Of a stretch of DNA of 64,000 nt, positions 43,304 through 50,463 are shown piece by piece (within the stretch, counting starts at the first letter, position 1; each line of letters begins with the position of its first letter). The stretch is taken from assembly GCA_017627765.1 (NCBI GenBank), contig JAGAGD010000115.1, positions 18,586-82,585 of the forward strand, written 5' to 3'. Under the pieces are notes generated by a model that worked only from the letters and a program-made list of their open reading frames with translations, did no database searches and was not told where the DNA came from. The position numbers and the translations under genes were made by a program. The DNA comes from Prevotella sp. GTDB taxonomy: Bacteria; Bacteroidota; Bacteroidia; Bacteroidales; Bacteroidaceae.

Positions 43304-44107
43304 TTAATCCAATTTTTTAAGGCTTACTTGCCAATTATAAGAAATATCTATACCAACCATATAGCAAACATTATCTTCAGGAAGGCATATTGAAGCATAA
43401 TAGTGGAAACCATTTATATCAATTTTTTCTAAAGATATATCACTTAAGATTCCACTTTTTTGATATTTAGCAGGCAAATATTTTAGAAATTCTTGTTTAT
43501 AGAAATTATGTGAGTATCTTTTAATATTACCTTCAAAAATGCCAATATATACAATATTGTCAAAATATAATCTTTCAACCCTAACTCCATTATCATTATA
43601 ACTTCCACAATATACTTTATATGATGACGGATTAACTTGAGTATAAGAATGATATCTCTTATTATTATAGCTTAAAATGGTATCAGTTTTAACCTTTTTG
43701 TTCTGATTTACTGATACAGCTTTTGTTGGTTGAAACAACGAAATATCATTTTCACTTTCTTCACCCAACCTTAACTTTATAACTTCTCCTGTTTGGTTTT
43801 TAAATACGAATAAATGAGGAGTTTGTTTTATAATGAGATACTTGCTACCCTCATCTTCTCCCATATAAAGTGTATCTCTACGTATTTCAAAACGAACCGG
43901 ACGTGAAAGTGAATCTGGGTAATATATTGTATCACCGAATGCACGAAATACAATTTCTTCAGAATCTTCATTAATCCAGATTCCTTGAAGCATCTGTTTG
44001 GCTTTCTTGTCTTCTCTCGGCTTTTCAATTTGTTCTTTTTTTGATTGGCAGCTAAATAGAGACAACAATAGAAATAAAAAGCAAAATCCTTTATTTAGAA
44101 ATAACAT
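43304..44107 (-). CDS. uncharacterised lipoprotein
   Basis: A 267-residue lipoprotein: the signal ends at LFSC with cysteine 20. The rest is largely beta-strand; LQGIWINEDSEEIVFRAFGDTIYYPDS at about 40-70 resembles the DUF4738 lipoproteins of Bacteroides and Prevotella, but I hold this only weakly. No catalytic motif is visible. It follows rfbC by 37 bases on the same strand and may share its transcript, though a link with sugar synthesis is not shown. Confidence 0.7.
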   Translation of the reverse strand: MLFLNKGFCFLFLLLSLFSCQSKKEQIEKPREDKKAKQMLQGIWINEDSEEIVFRAFGDTIYYPDSLSRPVRFEIRRDTLYMGEDEGSKYLIIKQTPHLFVFKNQTGEVIKLRLGEESENDISLFQPTKAVSVNQNKKVKTDTILSYNNKRYHSYTQVNPSSYKVYCGSYNDNGVRVERLYFDNIVYIGIFEGNIKRYSHNFYKQEFLKYLPAKYQKSGILSDISLEKIDINGFHYYASICLPEDNVCYMVGIDISYNWQVSLKKLD

Positions 44108-44144
44108 ACGTAGGTTCTACTATTATTAAATGGGAATTTTTTAT

Positions 44145-44693
44145 TTATTCGAAAACCTCAGCCTCAGACAAGTGACAAGCTTTATTATCTTTTTCACTTG
44201 TCTGAACTTCAAGATTCTCAATAGGCCAATTTATGCCTATTTCAACATCGTCCCATAGAATCGAAGCTTCACTTTGAGGAGCATAAACATTATCAACTTT
44301 GTATGCAAATATTGCTTCATCACTTAGAACTAGAAAGCCATGAGCAAAACCGCGTGGTATATATAATTGTTTTTTATTTTCCTCACTTAACTCAACCATA
44401 ATATATTTACCAAATGTTGGCGAATTCTTTCTAATATCAACAGCAACGTCAACGACAGTTCCTTTAATCACTCTTACTAGTTTAGCCTGGGAAAAATTAC
44501 CTTTTTGATAATGTAATCCTCTCAATACACCTCTGCTTGATTTCGATTCATTATCTTGAATAAAGTTAATCTTACCTATATTCTCATCAAATTCACTTTG
44601 CTTAAATGATTCAAAAAAATATCCTCGTGAATCATTAAAAACTTTTGGCGTAATAATGTATACGCCATCTATTTCTGTTTTCTCGTAATTCAT
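44145..44693 (-). CDS. rfbC: dTDP-4-dehydrorhamnose 3,5-epimerase
   Basis: A 182-residue cupin-fold epimerase in dTDP-L-rhamnose synthesis, used for surface polysaccharides. Motifs are DSRGYFFESFKQSEF, the active-site histidine in VLRGLHYQKG, KGTVVDVAVDIR, IPRGFAHGFLVLSD and YAPQSEASILWDD. Length is normal. The other rhamnose genes (rfbA, B, D) are not in the window. Confidence 0.94.
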   Translation of the reverse strand: MNYEKTEIDGVYIITPKVFNDSRGYFFESFKQSEFDENIGKINFIQDNESKSSRGVLRGLHYQKGNFSQAKLVRVIKGTVVDVAVDIRKNSPTFGKYIMVELSEENKKQLYIPRGFAHGFLVLSDEAIFAYKVDNVYAPQSEASILWDDVEIGINWPIENLEVQTSEKDNKACHLSEAEVFE

Positions 44694-44820: not shown

Positions 44821-44851
44821 TTGCTCTCTTTATAAAAAAAACGTACTTTTG
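44821..44851 (+). promoter_or_regulatory. promoter directly abutting the HU-like/SPOR gene start
   Basis: TTG at 44821-44823, a 20-base gap, then TACTTTTG at 44844-44851. Only four bases separate the -7 box from the GTG start codon at 44856, so transcription should start at or next to the codon. It lies back to back with the rfbC promoter, 17 bases between -33 elements. Confidence 0.75.
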
Positions 44852-44855
44852 CAAA

Positions 44856-45908
44856 GTGATAGTTTTTGATAAACATATTGAAATTCTTCTTTTAGATAAT
44901 GATTGTGTCATAGTTCCACAATTAGGTGGATTTATGGCTCATCATGCTGACGCATGTTTTGATAATGAGGAAAATGTATTCTTACCTCCATATCGCAGTA
45001 TTGGATTTAATCCCCAATTAAAACTAAATGACAATCTCCTTGTTCAATCATATATTGAAAACTATGATCTTAGTTATCCTGAGTCACTTCGTAAAATAGA
45101 AGCAGAAGTCAATGAACTTAGACAAATATTAGTTCAAGAAGGTAGATATGAGCTCAAAGGCATCGGAATTCTTTATTATAACAATGAAGGAAAGTATACA
45201 TTTGAGCCATGCGAAGCAGGTATACTAACCCCAGAATTATATGGATTAGGTTCTAATGAGATAAAAAAACTGATCTCTAACAATTCCACTATTGGTACTC
45301 CTTCCAAAAATAAAAGAATCAATAAATTAGCCCATAGAACAAGGAATGTTAACTTTAAAAAGATAGGACGAAGCATAGCATCAAATGTTGCCGTAGCTGC
45401 TATAATATGTTTTGCTTTTTTGATATTTGCGAAACCTATTGAAAATTGTAGTAAAAACGAAACCAAGACAATAGAGTCTGTTTTCATGAAAGACATATTG
45501 ATTAATAGTTCAAAAGGAAATGCAAAAAAAGAAGTTGCAATTATAGATAGAAATAAAAAAACATCGAAAATAAAAGAATCCAAAGATTCTGATTTTTCAA
45601 TTAATCAGTCAGAAAACAAAAAAACAAATACCCAATTTAAGCAAGCTGAAAACAAACATGTTGAAATTGAAAAATCAAATTCATATTATACTTTAGTTTT
45701 AGCAAGCCGAGTAACAAAGAACAATGCTAAAATTTTTGTTAACGAACTCCACAATAAAGGAATTGGGGATGCTAGAGTTCTAGAAAAGAAAGTAGGAGCA
45801 CAGGTTATTTGCGGTAGATATACTACAGAAAATGAAGCCTACGCTAAACTTAACATAATGCATTCAAATGATTTTTTCAAAGAAGCTTGGGTAATGAAAG
45901 TTCAATAA
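44856..45908 (+). CDS. HU-like (CCDC81-type) DNA-binding, transmembrane, SPOR protein
   Basis: A 350-residue protein. Residues 1-135 hold two HU-superfamily domains of the bacterial CCDC81 type (HIEILLLDNDCVIVPQLGGF, then YELKGIGILYY). A basic stretch at 150-172 leads into one helix at about 174-192. A lysine- and asparagine-rich linker follows, and a SPOR domain ends the protein (about 276-350), which binds denuded glycan strands at division sites. The predicted topology is DNA-binding in the cytoplasm and SPOR in the periplasm. The GTG at 44856 is the first possible initiator, and the conserved N-terminus needs it. It lies 10 bases before the FHA gene. Confidence 0.85.
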   Translation: MIVFDKHIEILLLDNDCVIVPQLGGFMAHHADACFDNEENVFLPPYRSIGFNPQLKLNDNLLVQSYIENYDLSYPESLRKIEAEVNELRQILVQEGRYELKGIGILYYNNEGKYTFEPCEAGILTPELYGLGSNEIKKLISNNSTIGTPSKNKRINKLAHRTRNVNFKKIGRSIASNVAVAAIICFAFLIFAKPIENCSKNETKTIESVFMKDILINSSKGNAKKEVAIIDRNKKTSKIKESKDSDFSINQSENKKTNTQFKQAENKHVEIEKSNSYYTLVLASRVTKNNAKIFVNELHNKGIGDARVLEKKVGAQVICGRYTTENEAYAKLNIMHSNDFFKEAWVMKVQ

Positions 45909-45918
45909 ATGATAAAAT

Positions 45919-46446
45919 ATGAAGAGAGTTCGTTGTCCGAAGTGCGATCACTTTATAATTTTTGATGAAAAAAAATATCACGAAGGTCAATCTTTGATTT
46001 TCCAGTGCGAGGAATGTGGTAAACAATTTGGTATAAAAATAGGTGTTAGCAAGCTTAGAAGACCACAGAAAGAAGAAAACAAATTAGAAAATAATGGAGA
46101 TACTCCATTCGGTTCAATCTTAGTTATTGAGAACGTATTCCACTTCAAGCAGATATTGCCATTAAATTTGGGTGACAATTCTATCGGTAGATATATGAAA
46201 GGAAGTAAAACTACGGTACCTATAGAGACCGTTGACCCAAGTGTTGATATGCTTCATTGTTTTATTAATGTGTCAAAAGACAATAAAGGAAATCTTAAAT
46301 ATATTCTGAGAGACGGTCCTAGTTATACTGGTACTTTTGTAGACAATACCATATTAGGTCCACGCGAAAAAAGAGTTATCACAGATGGAACCCTTTTTAC
46401 TATAGGCGCTACAAGTATTATTCTTCAAGCGCCAAAAGACAAATGA
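45919..46446 (+). CDS. zinc-ribbon and FHA domain protein
   Basis: A 175-residue cytoplasmic protein. Residues 1-40 form a zinc ribbon (CPKC at 5-8 and CEEC near 30-33), a variable linker follows to about 62, and the rest is an FHA domain, with the GR of NSIGRYMKG, H in MLHCFI and YTGTFVDN. FHA domains bind phosphothreonine. The gene shares an operon with the HU-like/SPOR gene, which suggests phosphorylation-linked regulation of that protein. No protein kinase is encoded nearby. Confidence 0.85.
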   Translation: MKRVRCPKCDHFIIFDEKKYHEGQSLIFQCEECGKQFGIKIGVSKLRRPQKEENKLENNGDTPFGSILVIENVFHFKQILPLNLGDNSIGRYMKGSKTTVPIETVDPSVDMLHCFINVSKDNKGNLKYILRDGPSYTGTFVDNTILGPREKRVITDGTLFTIGATSIILQAPKDK

Positions 46447-46456
46447 AAAAAGCGTT

Positions 46457-46526
46457 TTGAAAATGCAAATATAAAACACCTTTGCATTTTCACTATATTA
46501 TGTAAGATGCAAAGGTATTTTATATT
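46457..46526. terminator. overlapping alternative hairpins between convergent genes
   Basis: AAAATGCAAA near 46460 can pair with TTTGCATTTT near 46483, but the same segment extended (ACCTTTGCAT) can also pair with ATGCAAAGGT near 46507. The second fold ends in ATTTTAT on the plus strand, and on the minus strand both pairings lead to T-rich sequence. Only one can form at a time. It probably ends both converging operons. Confidence 0.6.
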
Positions 46527-46535
46527 GTAAGGATT

Positions 46536-47873
46536 CTACTTCTTAAATTTCTTTTTTAATTTCAACTTTGGAATTTTGAGTTTATCACCCTGTTTTACTT
46601 CTGTTTTACCATCATTAATAGCAATCACATAACACTCCATGTCCGAACCCAAGTGAGCTCTTGAAATTGATTTCAGAGTTTGCCCTTTTGCGACTGTAAC
46701 TGTTTGTGACACACCTTCAATCCTATATGCTCCATAGCGAATTGCTACATATTTAGCTTCATATTCAGACTGTTTATCTACAATCTGTTCATCTGCATTT
46801 TTTGCCTGAACACTTTCCGTTTTTTTATTCTCGCTTATAGACTGTTGTTTATTAATATTATATTCTAAGGTTTTAGTTTCTTCGTTATGAGCAGAATTAT
46901 CATTTTGTTCTTCGTTATGTTTAGTCTTATTTATTATTTTCTCACGATTAAATGAATTTTCGTTAGTTGCAATACTATCAATGTCCTGTTCAATGTATAC
47001 TACTGCAGGAGAAGGTGGAATCAGATAATGTCCAAACAAATATCCACCAATAAAACCAATAACAAGAGCTAAGATAGTAAATATTAGTGTTTTTTTCTTG
47101 CCACTTGAACCATTTGATAATACTTCTGTGTCATAGTCGTATTCAGGAACAAAATTTGACATCGTATTATGCTCAACATTTGCTTCCTCTTCAGTATGAA
47201 TATCTTCAAGTATTTTTTCTTCTACATTTTCTTTTTTTAATTGTATATTTTTATCATCAACTTCAGATGAAATAAAATCTTCATTTATACTTTCATTCTC
47301 ATTCAAAAATGATTCGTCTTCTATAGAAATATCGTCGGCATTATTTTGCAAATGACCATCAATTACAACATTTATATCTCCTTCTGTAGGGAGAACTTCA
47401 TCCTGTTCATTATCGTTGACGTCAGATTTAATCTCAACATCATCAATATTCTCTTCATCAGTACTCTGAACTATCTCATGTATTATTTCATCAACATTTT
47501 CGATGACTTCGGTATCATCTTCTTCACTTTGTTTTTCTTCAATATCATCAAAAGAAACACCATCATTTAACACAACTGTATCAAACTGTGAGAACGGTTT
47601 GTTCACCAATTCTTTCATCAATGAATCAGGTGTAAATGTAATCTTATCATGTCCATAAATAATGTATCTTTCACCAGTATTCACATTTACACTTTCTCTA
47701 TCCTTGACTTTTACAACCTTGAATGTTCCCAATCCTTTTATTTTAACTGTATCACTTTTTTCAAGGTTTACCAGGATCGTTTTTACAAATGCATTAAGAA
47801 ATATCTCAATTTGAGAAATAGGCAAATTGTGTTTTATAGATAATCTACTTGCAATTTCTTGTAGCTTAATCAT
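46536..47873 (-). CDS. HU-domain, transmembrane, LysM protein
   Basis: A 445-residue protein. Residues 1-92 are an HU domain (MIKLQEIASRLSIKHNLP, VKIKGLGTFKVVKV, ITFTPDSLMKELV). A strongly acidic linker covers about 105-255. One helix (about 261-284, IFTILALVIGFIGGYLF) is followed by a flexible asparagine-, lysine- and glutamate-rich linker and a LysM-like domain at about 391-440 (TVTVAKGQTLKSISRAHLG), which should bind peptidoglycan, then a lysine-rich end. Topology and parts parallel the HU-like/SPOR protein that converges on it. It is last in the ftsY-rimO-HU operon, one base after HU. Confidence 0.85.
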   Translation of the reverse strand: MIKLQEIASRLSIKHNLPISQIEIFLNAFVKTILVNLEKSDTVKIKGLGTFKVVKVKDRESVNVNTGERYIIYGHDKITFTPDSLMKELVNKPFSQFDTVVLNDGVSFDDIEEKQSEEDDTEVIENVDEIIHEIVQSTDEENIDDVEIKSDVNDNEQDEVLPTEGDINVVIDGHLQNNADDISIEDESFLNENESINEDFISSEVDDKNIQLKKENVEEKILEDIHTEEEANVEHNTMSNFVPEYDYDTEVLSNGSSGKKKTLIFTILALVIGFIGGYLFGHYLIPPSPAVVYIEQDIDSIATNENSFNREKIINKTKHNEEQNDNSAHNEETKTLEYNINKQQSISENKKTESVQAKNADEQIVDKQSEYEAKYVAIRYGAYRIEGVSQTVTVAKGQTLKSISRAHLGSDMECYVIAINDGKTEVKQGDKLKIPKLKLKKKFKK

Positions 47874-47874
47874 T

Positions 47875-48162
47875 TTAATTGCCTCCTTTCTTCTTGAATT
47901 TATCCCTTAAAGAACTAACAGGTTTGAAATTCAGAACCAGTTTAGGTGGAACAAGCATACGCTGCTGTGTAGAAGGATTAACCACAATTCGTTCCATCCT
48001 CTTTTTTATTTCAAAAGTTCCGAAGTCATTAAACAAGACATTCTCACCTTCTTCAAATGCAATTCCCATCTCGTCAATTATACTATTGACAAGTTTCTTT
48101 GTATTCTCCAAAGAAGTATTAGTGTCTTTTGACAACTGCTGTAAAAACTCTTTATTGTTCAT
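47875..48162 (-). CDS. HU family DNA-binding protein
   Basis: A 95-residue HU homologue. It has MNNKEFLQQLSKDTNTSLENTKKLVNSIIDEM, VLFNDFGTFEIKKRMERIVVNPSTQQRMLVPPKLVLNFKP and a basic tail. I start at ATG 48162; the frame reaches a TTG at 48180 inside rimO. It sits 4 bases after rimO and 1 base before the HU/LysM gene, so a plain HU and its membrane-linked relative are made from one mRNA. Confidence 0.9.
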   Translation of the reverse strand: MNNKEFLQQLSKDTNTSLENTKKLVNSIIDEMGIAFEEGENVLFNDFGTFEIKKRMERIVVNPSTQQRMLVPPKLVLNFKPVSSLRDKFKKKGGN

Positions 48163-48166
48163 AATT

Positions 48167-49468
48167 TTATTTTTCTTCAACTACACCATATAAATCAAAT
48201 TCTTCGGCATCGGTTATTTTTATATTATAAAAACGGCCAACTCTAAGCGTTTTCTCGCCAACAGGAATTAATACCTCTGGATCAACCTCTGGTGAGCTAA
48301 ATTCAGTCCTTCCAATATAGTAATTGCCTTCCTTTCTGTCAATAACAACTTTGAAGATTTTTCCTATTTTTGAAGCTTCAATCTCTGCACTTATCTCTTG
48401 TTGAATAGCCATCAGTTTATCAAGACGACTTTGTTTTATGTTATCAGGAACATTATCATCATAATGGCGCTGGCTGAAAGTGTCTTCTTCTTCAGAATAT
48501 GCAAAGGCTCCCATTCTTTCAAAACGTGCCCAACGAGTAAATTCCAACAACTCTTCAAAGTCTGTATCAGTTTCATTTGGAAATCCTACCATAAGTGTAG
48601 TTCTTAAAGTTATTCCAGGAACCTCTTCTCTAATTCTGCGTATAAGCTCATAGGTCTCATTCTTTGAAAAATGCCTATGCATAGAATTTAATATGTTATC
48701 TGAAATATGCTGGAACGCAATGTCAAGATATTTACAGACATTGTCACGTTCTCTAATCACACGAAGTAAATCGTAAGGAAAATCTGTAGGATAAGCATAA
48801 TGAAGCCTTATCCATTTAACTCCTTTTATATCTGAAATTTTTTCAATTAATTCTGCAATATGGGATTTCCCGTCAAAATCAATGCCATAGTATGTCAATT
48901 CTTGAGCTATTATTTGGAATTCATAAACTCCATTGTCAACATATCGTCTAATTTCATCAAGAATATCATCCATTGAACGGCTTTTGTGACTTCCTGTAAT
49001 TATTGGAATTGCACAATAAGCACAATGACGATTACATCCTTCGCTGATTTTAATATATGCATAGTGATGAGGTGTCAACTTTGCTGGAGCAGATTTTACA
49101 GAACTCTTAGCTTTACCTAAATCTTCTACTACCTGCTTAAAGTCAAACTTGCCATAATATTTGTCTACCTGCGGAATTTCTTTCACCAAGTCATTCTTAT
49201 ATCTTTGTGATAAACATCCCATGACTAAGAGTTTTTTTAGTCGTCCTTCTTCCTTAGCCTGAACAAACTCTAAAATTGTATTTATGCTTTCTTCTTTGGC
49301 ATCTCCAATAAATCCACATGTGTTTATTATAGCTATATCCCCATTAGGACGCTTGGTGTCATGAGTGCAATGATACCCATTACCTTCAAGTTTACGAATA
49401 AGTCGCTCACTATCAACAAGATTTTTAGAACAACCTAAAGTAATAATATCAATCTGATTTTCCTTCAT
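48167..49468 (-). CDS. rimO: ribosomal protein S12 methylthiotransferase RimO
   Basis: A 433-residue radical SAM enzyme that adds a methylthio group to an aspartate of ribosomal protein S12. The UPF0004 domain has C13, C51 and C85 (LGCSKNLVDSER, INTCGFI, VMGCLSQ) for the auxiliary cluster. The radical SAM cluster is C145, C149 and C152 (GCNRHCAYCAIP), and a TRAM domain ends the protein. SKN-VDSE near the start separates it from MiaB. It lies 38 bases after ftsY. Confidence 0.96.
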   Translation of the reverse strand: MKENQIDIITLGCSKNLVDSERLIRKLEGNGYHCTHDTKRPNGDIAIINTCGFIGDAKEESINTILEFVQAKEEGRLKKLLVMGCLSQRYKNDLVKEIPQVDKYYGKFDFKQVVEDLGKAKSSVKSAPAKLTPHHYAYIKISEGCNRHCAYCAIPIITGSHKSRSMDDILDEIRRYVDNGVYEFQIIAQELTYYGIDFDGKSHIAELIEKISDIKGVKWIRLHYAYPTDFPYDLLRVIRERDNVCKYLDIAFQHISDNILNSMHRHFSKNETYELIRRIREEVPGITLRTTLMVGFPNETDTDFEELLEFTRWARFERMGAFAYSEEEDTFSQRHYDDNVPDNIKQSRLDKLMAIQQEISAEIEASKIGKIFKVVIDRKEGNYYIGRTEFSSPEVDPEVLIPVGEKTLRVGRFYNIKITDAEEFDLYGVVEEK

Positions 49469-49506: not shown

Positions 49507-50463
49507 TTATTCTTCTTTGAATAATGAGTCTACAAACTGTGTCTTATTAAACAATTGCAAGTCTTCCATTCCTTCACCTAAACCTATATACTTTACAGGA
49601 ACTTTAAGCTGGTCACTAATTCCAATTACAACTCCGCCTTTTGCTGTACCATCTAATTTTGTTATTGCCAAACTTGTAATTTGTGTGACTGCAGCAAACT
49701 GCCGAGCTTGCTCGAAAGCGTTTTGTCCTGTACTTCCATCTAACACCAGCAGCACCTCATCTGGAGCTTGTGGAAGAACTTTTTTCATAACGTCTTTGAT
49801 TTTTTTAAGCTCATTCATTAGTCCAATTTTATTATGGAGTCGTCCTGCAGTATCAATTATAACAACATCGGCATTATTAGCTTTTGCCGAAGTAAGAGTA
49901 TCAAACGCAACAGATGCAGGGTCAGATCCCATTTGCTGTTTAATAACGGGAACTCCCACTCTATCTCCCCAAATACATAGCTGCTCAACAGCCGCTGCAC
50001 GGAATGTGTCTGCAGCTCCAAGATAAACCTTCTTGCCTGCCTCCTTAAATTGATATGCCAGTTTGCCTATCGTTGTAGTCTTACCGACTCCATTAACACC
50101 AACAACAAGAATAACGTATGGGCTATGGTCTGTGGGTAAATCCCAATCATCCATGTCGTTTGTATTATTCTCAGCGAGAAGAGCCGCTATCTCTTGTCTC
50201 AGTATGCTGTTTAATTCTGATGTTGAAACATATTTATCGCGAGCAACACGCTCTTCAATTCTCTCAATTATTTTCAACGTAGTGTCAACACCAACATCAG
50301 ATGTAATCAACACCTCTTCAAGGTCGTCGAGCACTTCGTCGTCAACCTTAGTTTTGCCTGCTATGGCTCTTGTAAGTTTATCGAAGACACTCTGTTTAGT
50401 TTTTTCTAGACCTTTATCAAGGGTTTCTTTTTTCTTTTTATTAAAAAAACCGAATAATTTCAT
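49507..50463 (-). CDS. ftsY: signal recognition particle receptor FtsY
   Basis: A 318-residue SRP GTPase, the NG domains with only a very short basic N-terminal segment (MKLFGFFNKKKKETLDK). Motifs are VGVNGVGKTTTIGKLA, DTAGRLHNKIGLMNEL and TKLDGTAKGG. It receives ribosome-nascent chain complexes from Ffh and the SRP RNA encoded at 2797-2896. The long acidic A domain of Escherichia coli is absent, as is usual in this phylum. It is first in an operon with rimO, HU and HU/LysM. Confidence 0.96.
   Translation of the reverse strand: MKLFGFFNKKKKETLDKGLEKTKQSVFDKLTRAIAGKTKVDDEVLDDLEEVLITSDVGVDTTLKIIERIEERVARDKYVSTSELNSILRQEIAALLAENNTNDMDDWDLPTDHSPYVILVVGVNGVGKTTTIGKLAYQFKEAGKKVYLGAADTFRAAAVEQLCIWGDRVGVPVIKQQMGSDPASVAFDTLTSAKANNADVVIIDTAGRLHNKIGLMNELKKIKDVMKKVLPQAPDEVLLVLDGSTGQNAFEQARQFAAVTQITSLAITKLDGTAKGGVVIGISDQLKVPVKYIGLGEGMEDLQLFNKTQFVDSLFKEE

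Follow-up and report, generated by a model that had tools for sequence, protein, structure and literature searches.

Why would a bacterium join domains of the HU fold, which packs DNA, to domains that bind the cell wall, and do so in two convergent genes? The question is raised by a 64,000-nucleotide stretch of a Prevotella sp. genome (assembly GCA_017627765.1, contig JAGAGD010000115.1, positions 18,586 to 82,585; hereafter the window). The genome is of Prevotella type and ~88% complete, its named relatives being Prevotella, Segatella, Xylanibacter, Hallella and similar. One gene, HU-SPOR (44856..45908, forward strand), encodes two HU-like domains, a hydrophobic helix, and a SPOR domain and is followed by a gene for an FHA protein; the other, HU-LysM (46536..47873, reverse strand), encodes an HU domain, an acidic linker, a hydrophobic helix, and a LysM-like end. 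An earlier sequence-only reading of the locus saw in the pair a possible tether between nucleoid and peptidoglycan; its observation is correct, and its interpretation is partly wrong. The interpretation that we favor, with a confidence just short of even, is that both proteins use an HU pair as the base of a scaffold anchored in the wall, HU-SPOR being an FtsN-like, protein-binding division factor and HU-LysM working together with the HU protein encoded upstream of it; the latter pair has perhaps retained contact with DNA. The argument is built on observed domains, gene order, conservation, fusions, and charges.

HU-SPOR is a protein of 350 residues with a GTG start. Residues 1 to 59 (44856..45032) match PF18174, HU-CCDC81_bac_1 (E = 3.4e-27, 94.6 bits against a cutoff of 26), and are followed at residues 61 to 129 (45036..45242) by a match to PF18175, HU-CCDC81_bac_2 (E = 1.4e-26, 92.6 bits against a cutoff of 35). 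The sole hydrophobic peak lies at residues 174 to 192 (45375..45431). In the window protein alone the SPOR domain at residues 275 to 343 (45678..45884) is below threshold (PF05036, E = 0.0077, 17.0 bits against a cutoff of 21), and its relatives back it: 25 of the 26 aligned family members, the window protein included, match SPOR at E ≤ 0.1, the best at 1.2e-10. The general HU model PF00216 is matched by only 3 of these 26 (best E = 0.0096), the remainder being recognized as the CCDC81 clade. The architecture that had been read by eye thus stands, as does the remark that HU of the CCDC81 type joined to SPOR was already described, since HU-SPOR falls in a known Pfam family. We take PF18174 and PF18175 to be linked to the bacterial HU-CCDC81 proteins of Burroughs et al. 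2017 (Cell Cycle 16:1093), a paper whose title names chromosome partitioning and which reportedly predicted such a role for these proteins. HU-SPOR shares with them the tandem order of domains 1 and 2 and the common SPOR end; it differs in its more acidic domains and in its FHA operon partner, seen in the window's family only (the loci outside it reach ~1.5 kb). HU-SPOR is a member of a known and widespread family, HU-CCDC81-SPOR, and HU-LysM is a Prevotella-type relative.

The layout of HU-SPOR recalls the division protein FtsN. The best solved-structure match of its profile is the FtsN SPOR domain (1uta, E = 0.028), and like E. coli FtsN it has a predicted single helix and then a periplasmic SPOR domain, a likeness of layout only. 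FtsN has a short cytoplasmic tail, in place of which HU-SPOR has two HU domains. A Pfam search of the genome gave three SPOR matches, including HU-SPOR (below cutoff); of the other two, one (164 residues) has an N terminus like that of a lipoprotein, and one (241 residues) has a signal-like N terminus, as in secreted proteins. Because of these N termini, HU-SPOR is the only SPOR protein found in the genome with the FtsN layout, and since neither of the others appears to span the membrane, it can be put to the test as a substitute for FtsN, in a division system believed to be little studied. In the favored interpretation HU-SPOR and HU-LysM would each cross the inner membrane once, leaving their HU domains in the cytoplasm and their wall-binding domains in the periplasm, and HU-SPOR would sit at the division site, its SPOR domain binding denuded septal glycan.

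What the HU domains of HU-SPOR hold is addressed by their charge. Both carry a net charge of −6 in the window (residues 1 to 60 and 61 to 130), and with limits set by the profiles neither domain is net positive in any of the 26 family members (medians −3.5 for domain 1 and −8 for domain 2); with fixed limits instead, a single domain 2 among the 26 reaches +1. For comparison, 28 HU proteins encoded next to HU-LysM range from +1 to +9 (median +4), and canonical HU open reading frames, some of them N-terminally extended, from +4 to +18. Domain 2 also leaves scant space for an arm in the alignment as read. DNA binding by HU-SPOR is doubtful because, in the window's family, its HU domains combine acidity with a short arm; HU-CCDC81 proteins elsewhere are less acidic. 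This bears on the tether, in which chromosomal DNA would be bound by the HU modules of both proteins and held in place through SPOR at the septum and through LysM at the lateral wall. We consider the full version unlikely: both N termini do belong to the HU superfamily by profile, and the 26 family members speak against its SPOR half. A basic juxtamembrane linker, considered as a substitute DNA contact, was rejected, its charge being +10 in the window and anywhere from −8 to +10 over the 26 members. In the favored interpretation the acidic CCDC81 pair would instead hold protein partners.

The second protein has 445 residues. Its HU domain (residues 5 to 91, 47601..47861) matches PF00216 at E = 2.3e-17 and is followed by a linker (residues 93 to 262) of net charge −45 and by its only hydrophobic helix (residues 263 to 281, 47031..47087). 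The C-terminal end (residues 376 to 445, 46539..46748) gives no hit to LysM (PF01476) up to E = 1 in the window protein and takes its name from aligned relatives, 13 of 30 of which match LysM at E ≤ 0.1 (best 4.7e-7); with their help the architecture first proposed for HU-LysM holds. Upstream on the same strand lie the HU partner, with an LVPPK motif (47875..48162; the listed open reading frame begins at a TTG at 48180, and the ATG at 48162 agrees with relatives), then rimO (48167..49468) and ftsY (49507..50463), both NCBIfam equivalogs. That HU-LysM follows a plain HU, RimO, and FtsY was correctly seen, and the order FtsY-RimO-HU-HU-LysM is intact in all 20 family loci fetched (L065 to L084, drawn from 45 other family genomes with an HU-LysM match). 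When 60 genomes sampled from the class were searched for HU-LysM, the only listed matches spanning the HU part and beyond were in the two genomes of the window's family among them (G000 and G002); the other genomes gave ordinary HU proteins or partial hits covering the linker or the LysM end (for example G385, E = 3.3e-14, C-terminal part).

Several features suggest that the HU partner and HU-LysM act as a pair. PF00216 is matched by 28/28 HU partners and 30/30 HU-LysM proteins, and as in HU/IHF dimers both align nearly end to end with canonical HU. They differ from such dimers in the helix and LysM-like end of HU-LysM and in an arm proline found mainly in the upstream partner: the partner has an invariant L-x-P-P motif and keeps the proline (P63) in at least 90% of 28 rows, and HU-LysM has mostly V or I, or another residue, in place of this proline, which in HU serves DNA binding. 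The main evidence for pairing is that the two genes, separate in the window, are fused in frame in a subclade, a third difference from HU/IHF dimers, with RimO directly upstream of the fused gene. Of six candidate fusions (L105, L108, L110, L112, L113, and L193), all except L113, which has one, contain two PF00216 stretches; the second arm is absent from L105, L112, L113, and L193, whereas L108 and L110 retain one in some shape. This fusion of the HU gene to the HU-LysM gene that it precedes, with arm loss in most fusions, is new here. Titles and abstract openings returned by literature searches held no description that we recognized of HU-LysM or of the HU-SPOR/FHA operon. HU-LysM would then be a Prevotella-type counterpart of HU-SPOR, built to the same plan, its single HU domain pairing with the upstream-encoded HU and its LysM end holding the complex to the wall.

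It is for this complex that the tether keeps some appeal. A DNA tether by HU/HU-LysM is possible because the HU partner keeps its positive charge and arm proline, and the arm stretch is retained in 26/30 HU-LysM rows. Against it, the arm is lost or altered in 4/30 aligned HU-LysM proteins plus the fusions L105 and L193 (the unfused L107 and L109 being among those affected), HU-LysM itself lacks the arm proline, and its linker is acidic in all 30 rows (net −3 to −56, a stretch that in fused rows takes in the second HU). The proposed tether is thus doubtful in its HU-SPOR half and possible in its HU/HU-LysM half. A division of labor can also be imagined in which HU/HU-LysM binds DNA at the wall, HU-SPOR serves division without DNA, and the two have only ancestry and layout in common. 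The charge and arm motif do differ between the two systems, and most genomes with both genes have them at separate places; the arm-less HU-LysM proteins that persist in the subclade fit poorly with an essential DNA contact, and we regard this split as distinctly unlikely.

If HU-SPOR holds proteins, its leading candidate partner would be its operon mate. The FHA gene (45919..46446, forward strand) starts 10 bp past HU-SPOR, and its product matches PF00498 (E = 2.3e-8), as do all 20 aligned members. Among the named loci, which are the best 80 of 575 relatives found, taken with flanks of at most 10 kb, FHA adjoins HU-SPOR in 80/80; in 78 it lies downstream on the same strand at a median gap of 9 bp, and in two (L157 and L187) it is inverted onto the opposite strand. 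It also adjoins HU-SPOR in 28 of 29 family loci (L003 to L031). No FHA gene was found beside HU-CCDC81 in 29 loci of other families (L036 to L064), which reach only ~1.5 kb past the match. The FHA profile matched 8 of 148 genomes in a class sample: five of the window's family, two weakly, and one from another family of the same order, a strong match with no HU-SPOR within its 3.5-kb locus. The link between HU-SPOR and FHA is strong but not absolute.

The earlier description of this protein as a zinc-ribbon/FHA operon mate holds for FHA and operon; zinc-ribbon models match it weakly, below their cutoffs, and yet the four cysteines of its two CxxC pairs are invariant (20/20). A canonical phosphothreonine reader it does not appear to be. 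Aligned to 1uht and 3po8, the pocket retains Arg in 20/20 members, has Asp at the Ser position in 20/20, and has Thr (17/20), Arg (2/20), or Val (1/20) at the Asn position; these Arg, Ser, and Asn residues we take to be the phosphothreonine contacts, so the pocket is altered at two of them throughout. A YscD-type FHA-like model is also matched by 6 of the 20. A search for Hanks kinases came up empty in 7/30 genus genomes, that of the window among them, and each of the 7 has HU-SPOR. Given the altered pocket and these HU-SPOR genomes without Hanks kinases found, phosphothreonine reading is unlikely to be the core job of the FHA protein, and its candidacy as a reader of kinase signals is weakened on both counts. 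One genus genome with an HU-HU-LysM fusion (G306, loci L112 and L232) has 33 Hanks-type kinase matches, a count that 7% contamination may inflate.

Outside the window's family the neighbors of HU-SPOR are mostly envelope genes, DprA excepted. PF18174 matched 40 of 198 phylum genomes, 39 of them outside the family, and wider stretches were taken from 20 of those 39; Pfam names of neighbors come from a single representative of each arrangement (L092 and L085), the other loci being assigned by BLAST cluster. Six of the 20 loci (L092, L096, L098, L099, L100, and L102, with a Pfam SPOR match in all except L102) hold a one-strand run of TPR, a 566-residue protein, HU-SPOR, ExbB/TolQ, ExbD/TolR, a TonB-like protein without a Pfam hit, and a Mur-ligase-type protein (FolC), the last two named by eye; the first three members of the run are common to nine. 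Seven others have a divergent DprA gene, HU-SPOR, a thioesterase gene, and an M23-peptidase gene on the opposite strand. ExbB/ExbD/TonB-like or M23-peptidase genes thus stand beside HU-SPOR in 13/20 loci. SPOR itself is matched by 7 of 10 scanned HU-CCDC81 proteins from outside the family (L101, L102, and L104 lack a match). The tether fares unevenly here as well: no Par or SMC protein occurs among the ten neighbor proteins scanned, and DprA adjoins HU-SPOR in 8/20 loci.

The same DprA gene is one of several points that count against wall-anchored scaffolds and an FtsN-like HU-SPOR. DprA handles DNA, and it is the divergent neighbor in those eight loci, once without the rest of the M23 set. 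The acidity of CCDC81 HU domains is not universal, since among 28 proteins from other families domain 1 is net positive in 11 and domain 2 in 2 (medians 0 and −3), and net charge is in any case a crude proxy for DNA binding. The positive-inside charge rule favors a cytoplasmic N terminus in 21/26 HU-SPOR proteins and in only 19/30 HU-LysM proteins (9 opposite, 2 equal). The FHA gene occurs without an HU-SPOR match in 6 of 61 family genomes. In four of these, from two genera (L266, L267, L268, and L269), reading of the sequence ahead of FHA revealed no HU-SPOR; of the other two, the contig of G018 ends before FHA, and G039 was left out. Because FHA is kept there with no HU-SPOR beside it, HU-SPOR is either dispensable in these genomes or too diverged to detect. 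Finally, we infer the tie of HU-SPOR to division, and with it the septal position, membrane topology, partners, HU-HU pairing, and loss of DNA binding that the favored interpretation calls for.

The side-by-side position of HU-SPOR and HU-LysM, which the sequence-only reading singled out, together with the FHA partner, as possibly undescribed, is probably incidental. By hand count both genes are present in 83 of 100 genus genomes, and they are convergent neighbors in six (the window's own, G266, G276, G293, G327, and G343), genes on different contigs being scored as apart. Four genomes (G262, G314, G346, and G353) gave weak LysM matches with unlisted positions; the stretches around HU-SPOR covered in three of them, G262, G314, and G353, showed no HU-LysM. 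Across the family 39 of 61 genomes have both genes, again by hand count, adjacent in three: convergent in the window's own and tandem in two of genus g15. Among the named loci, in five of which the contig ends less than 3 kb after FHA, HU-LysM is adjacent in one (L193) and ~9 kb off in another (L150). The convergent arrangement is real in the window, then, and not conserved. On a FastTree phylogeny of 137 HU-SPOR+FHA rows (long branches flagged; excluding two duplicates and one locus that lacks FHA), with 132 rows of known state and 10 adjacent, adjacency requires four changes, three of them forced by well-supported branches. Such repeated appearance, in two orientations, is what might be expected if the neighbors formed a functional unit of paired anchors, an idea that the sparse counts make highly improbable. 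At least nine further genus genomes carry the two genes ~12 to 90 kb apart on the same contig, so that a local rearrangement would be enough to create the pair. The conserved units are two separate blocks, HU-SPOR+FHA and FtsY-RimO-HU-HU-LysM.

Comparison of the two systems suggests some kinship between them. In hhalign comparisons the diagonal pairings, HU partner with CCDC81 domain 1 and the HU of HU-LysM with domain 2, reach 79.5% and 73%; the crossed pairings reach 33% and 13%, and the figures for canonical HU are 22.6% and 15%. The HMM test, with its low bit scores, did not confirm this pattern: the profile of the HU partner scores highest for domain 1 in 50/54 cases, and that of HU-LysM does so for domain 2 in only 9/54. 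A two-way kinship was accordingly dropped, and no one-to-one correspondence can be claimed, because the HU partner also comes first for domain 2 (38/54). The CCDC81 domains still seem closer to the HU partner than they are to canonical HU, a likeness weakened by the shallow canonical alignment. A PP-5-F-x-P pattern is common to the HU partner and CCDC81 domain 1, and 10/28 HU partners match CCDC81_euk_1 at E ≤ 0.01.

It is conceivable, if on balance improbable, that an HU pair was turned more than once into a cytoplasmic scaffold for wall-anchored proteins, anciently as CCDC81-SPOR in many Bacteroidia families and again as HU/HU-LysM in Prevotella-type bacteria. With the same reserve, HU/HU-LysM might then be read as a series: two genes; two genes with the second arm decayed; one fused, arm-less tandem, in one case already like eukaryotic CCDC81. 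That case is the L193 fusion, which matches CCDC81_euk_1 (1.3e-5) and then CCDC81_euk_2 (9.6e-5), in the eukaryotic order and each slightly below cutoff; the other five fusions differ from eukaryotic CCDC81 in having no such ordered match. We know of no wall-binding part in eukaryotic CCDC81. If the reading is true, CCDC81 had already begun to lose DNA binding in envelope proteins of bacteria when it was transferred to eukaryotes. The series would be a natural record of a DNA-packing fold possibly becoming a protein scaffold, and it bears on the origin of the eukaryotic protein, which is proposed to be a structural component within axonemal microtubules (PMC11961760).

The reading frames of HU-SPOR, FHA, HU-LysM, HU, RimO, and FtsY are all open at the positions given. 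Part of the gap between the convergent genes is occupied by an imperfect inverted repeat (46468..46526, listed on the forward strand; 23 nt, 91% complementary), which we would guess to be a terminator common to both; the terminator scan listed none at this position. On the other side of HU-SPOR (window 43304-44693), a divergent dTDP-4-dehydrorhamnose 3,5-epimerase gene lies within 1 kb of it in 53/80 named loci, and relatives of a 267-residue protein (43304-44107), itself without an NCBIfam hit, often come after the epimerase gene.

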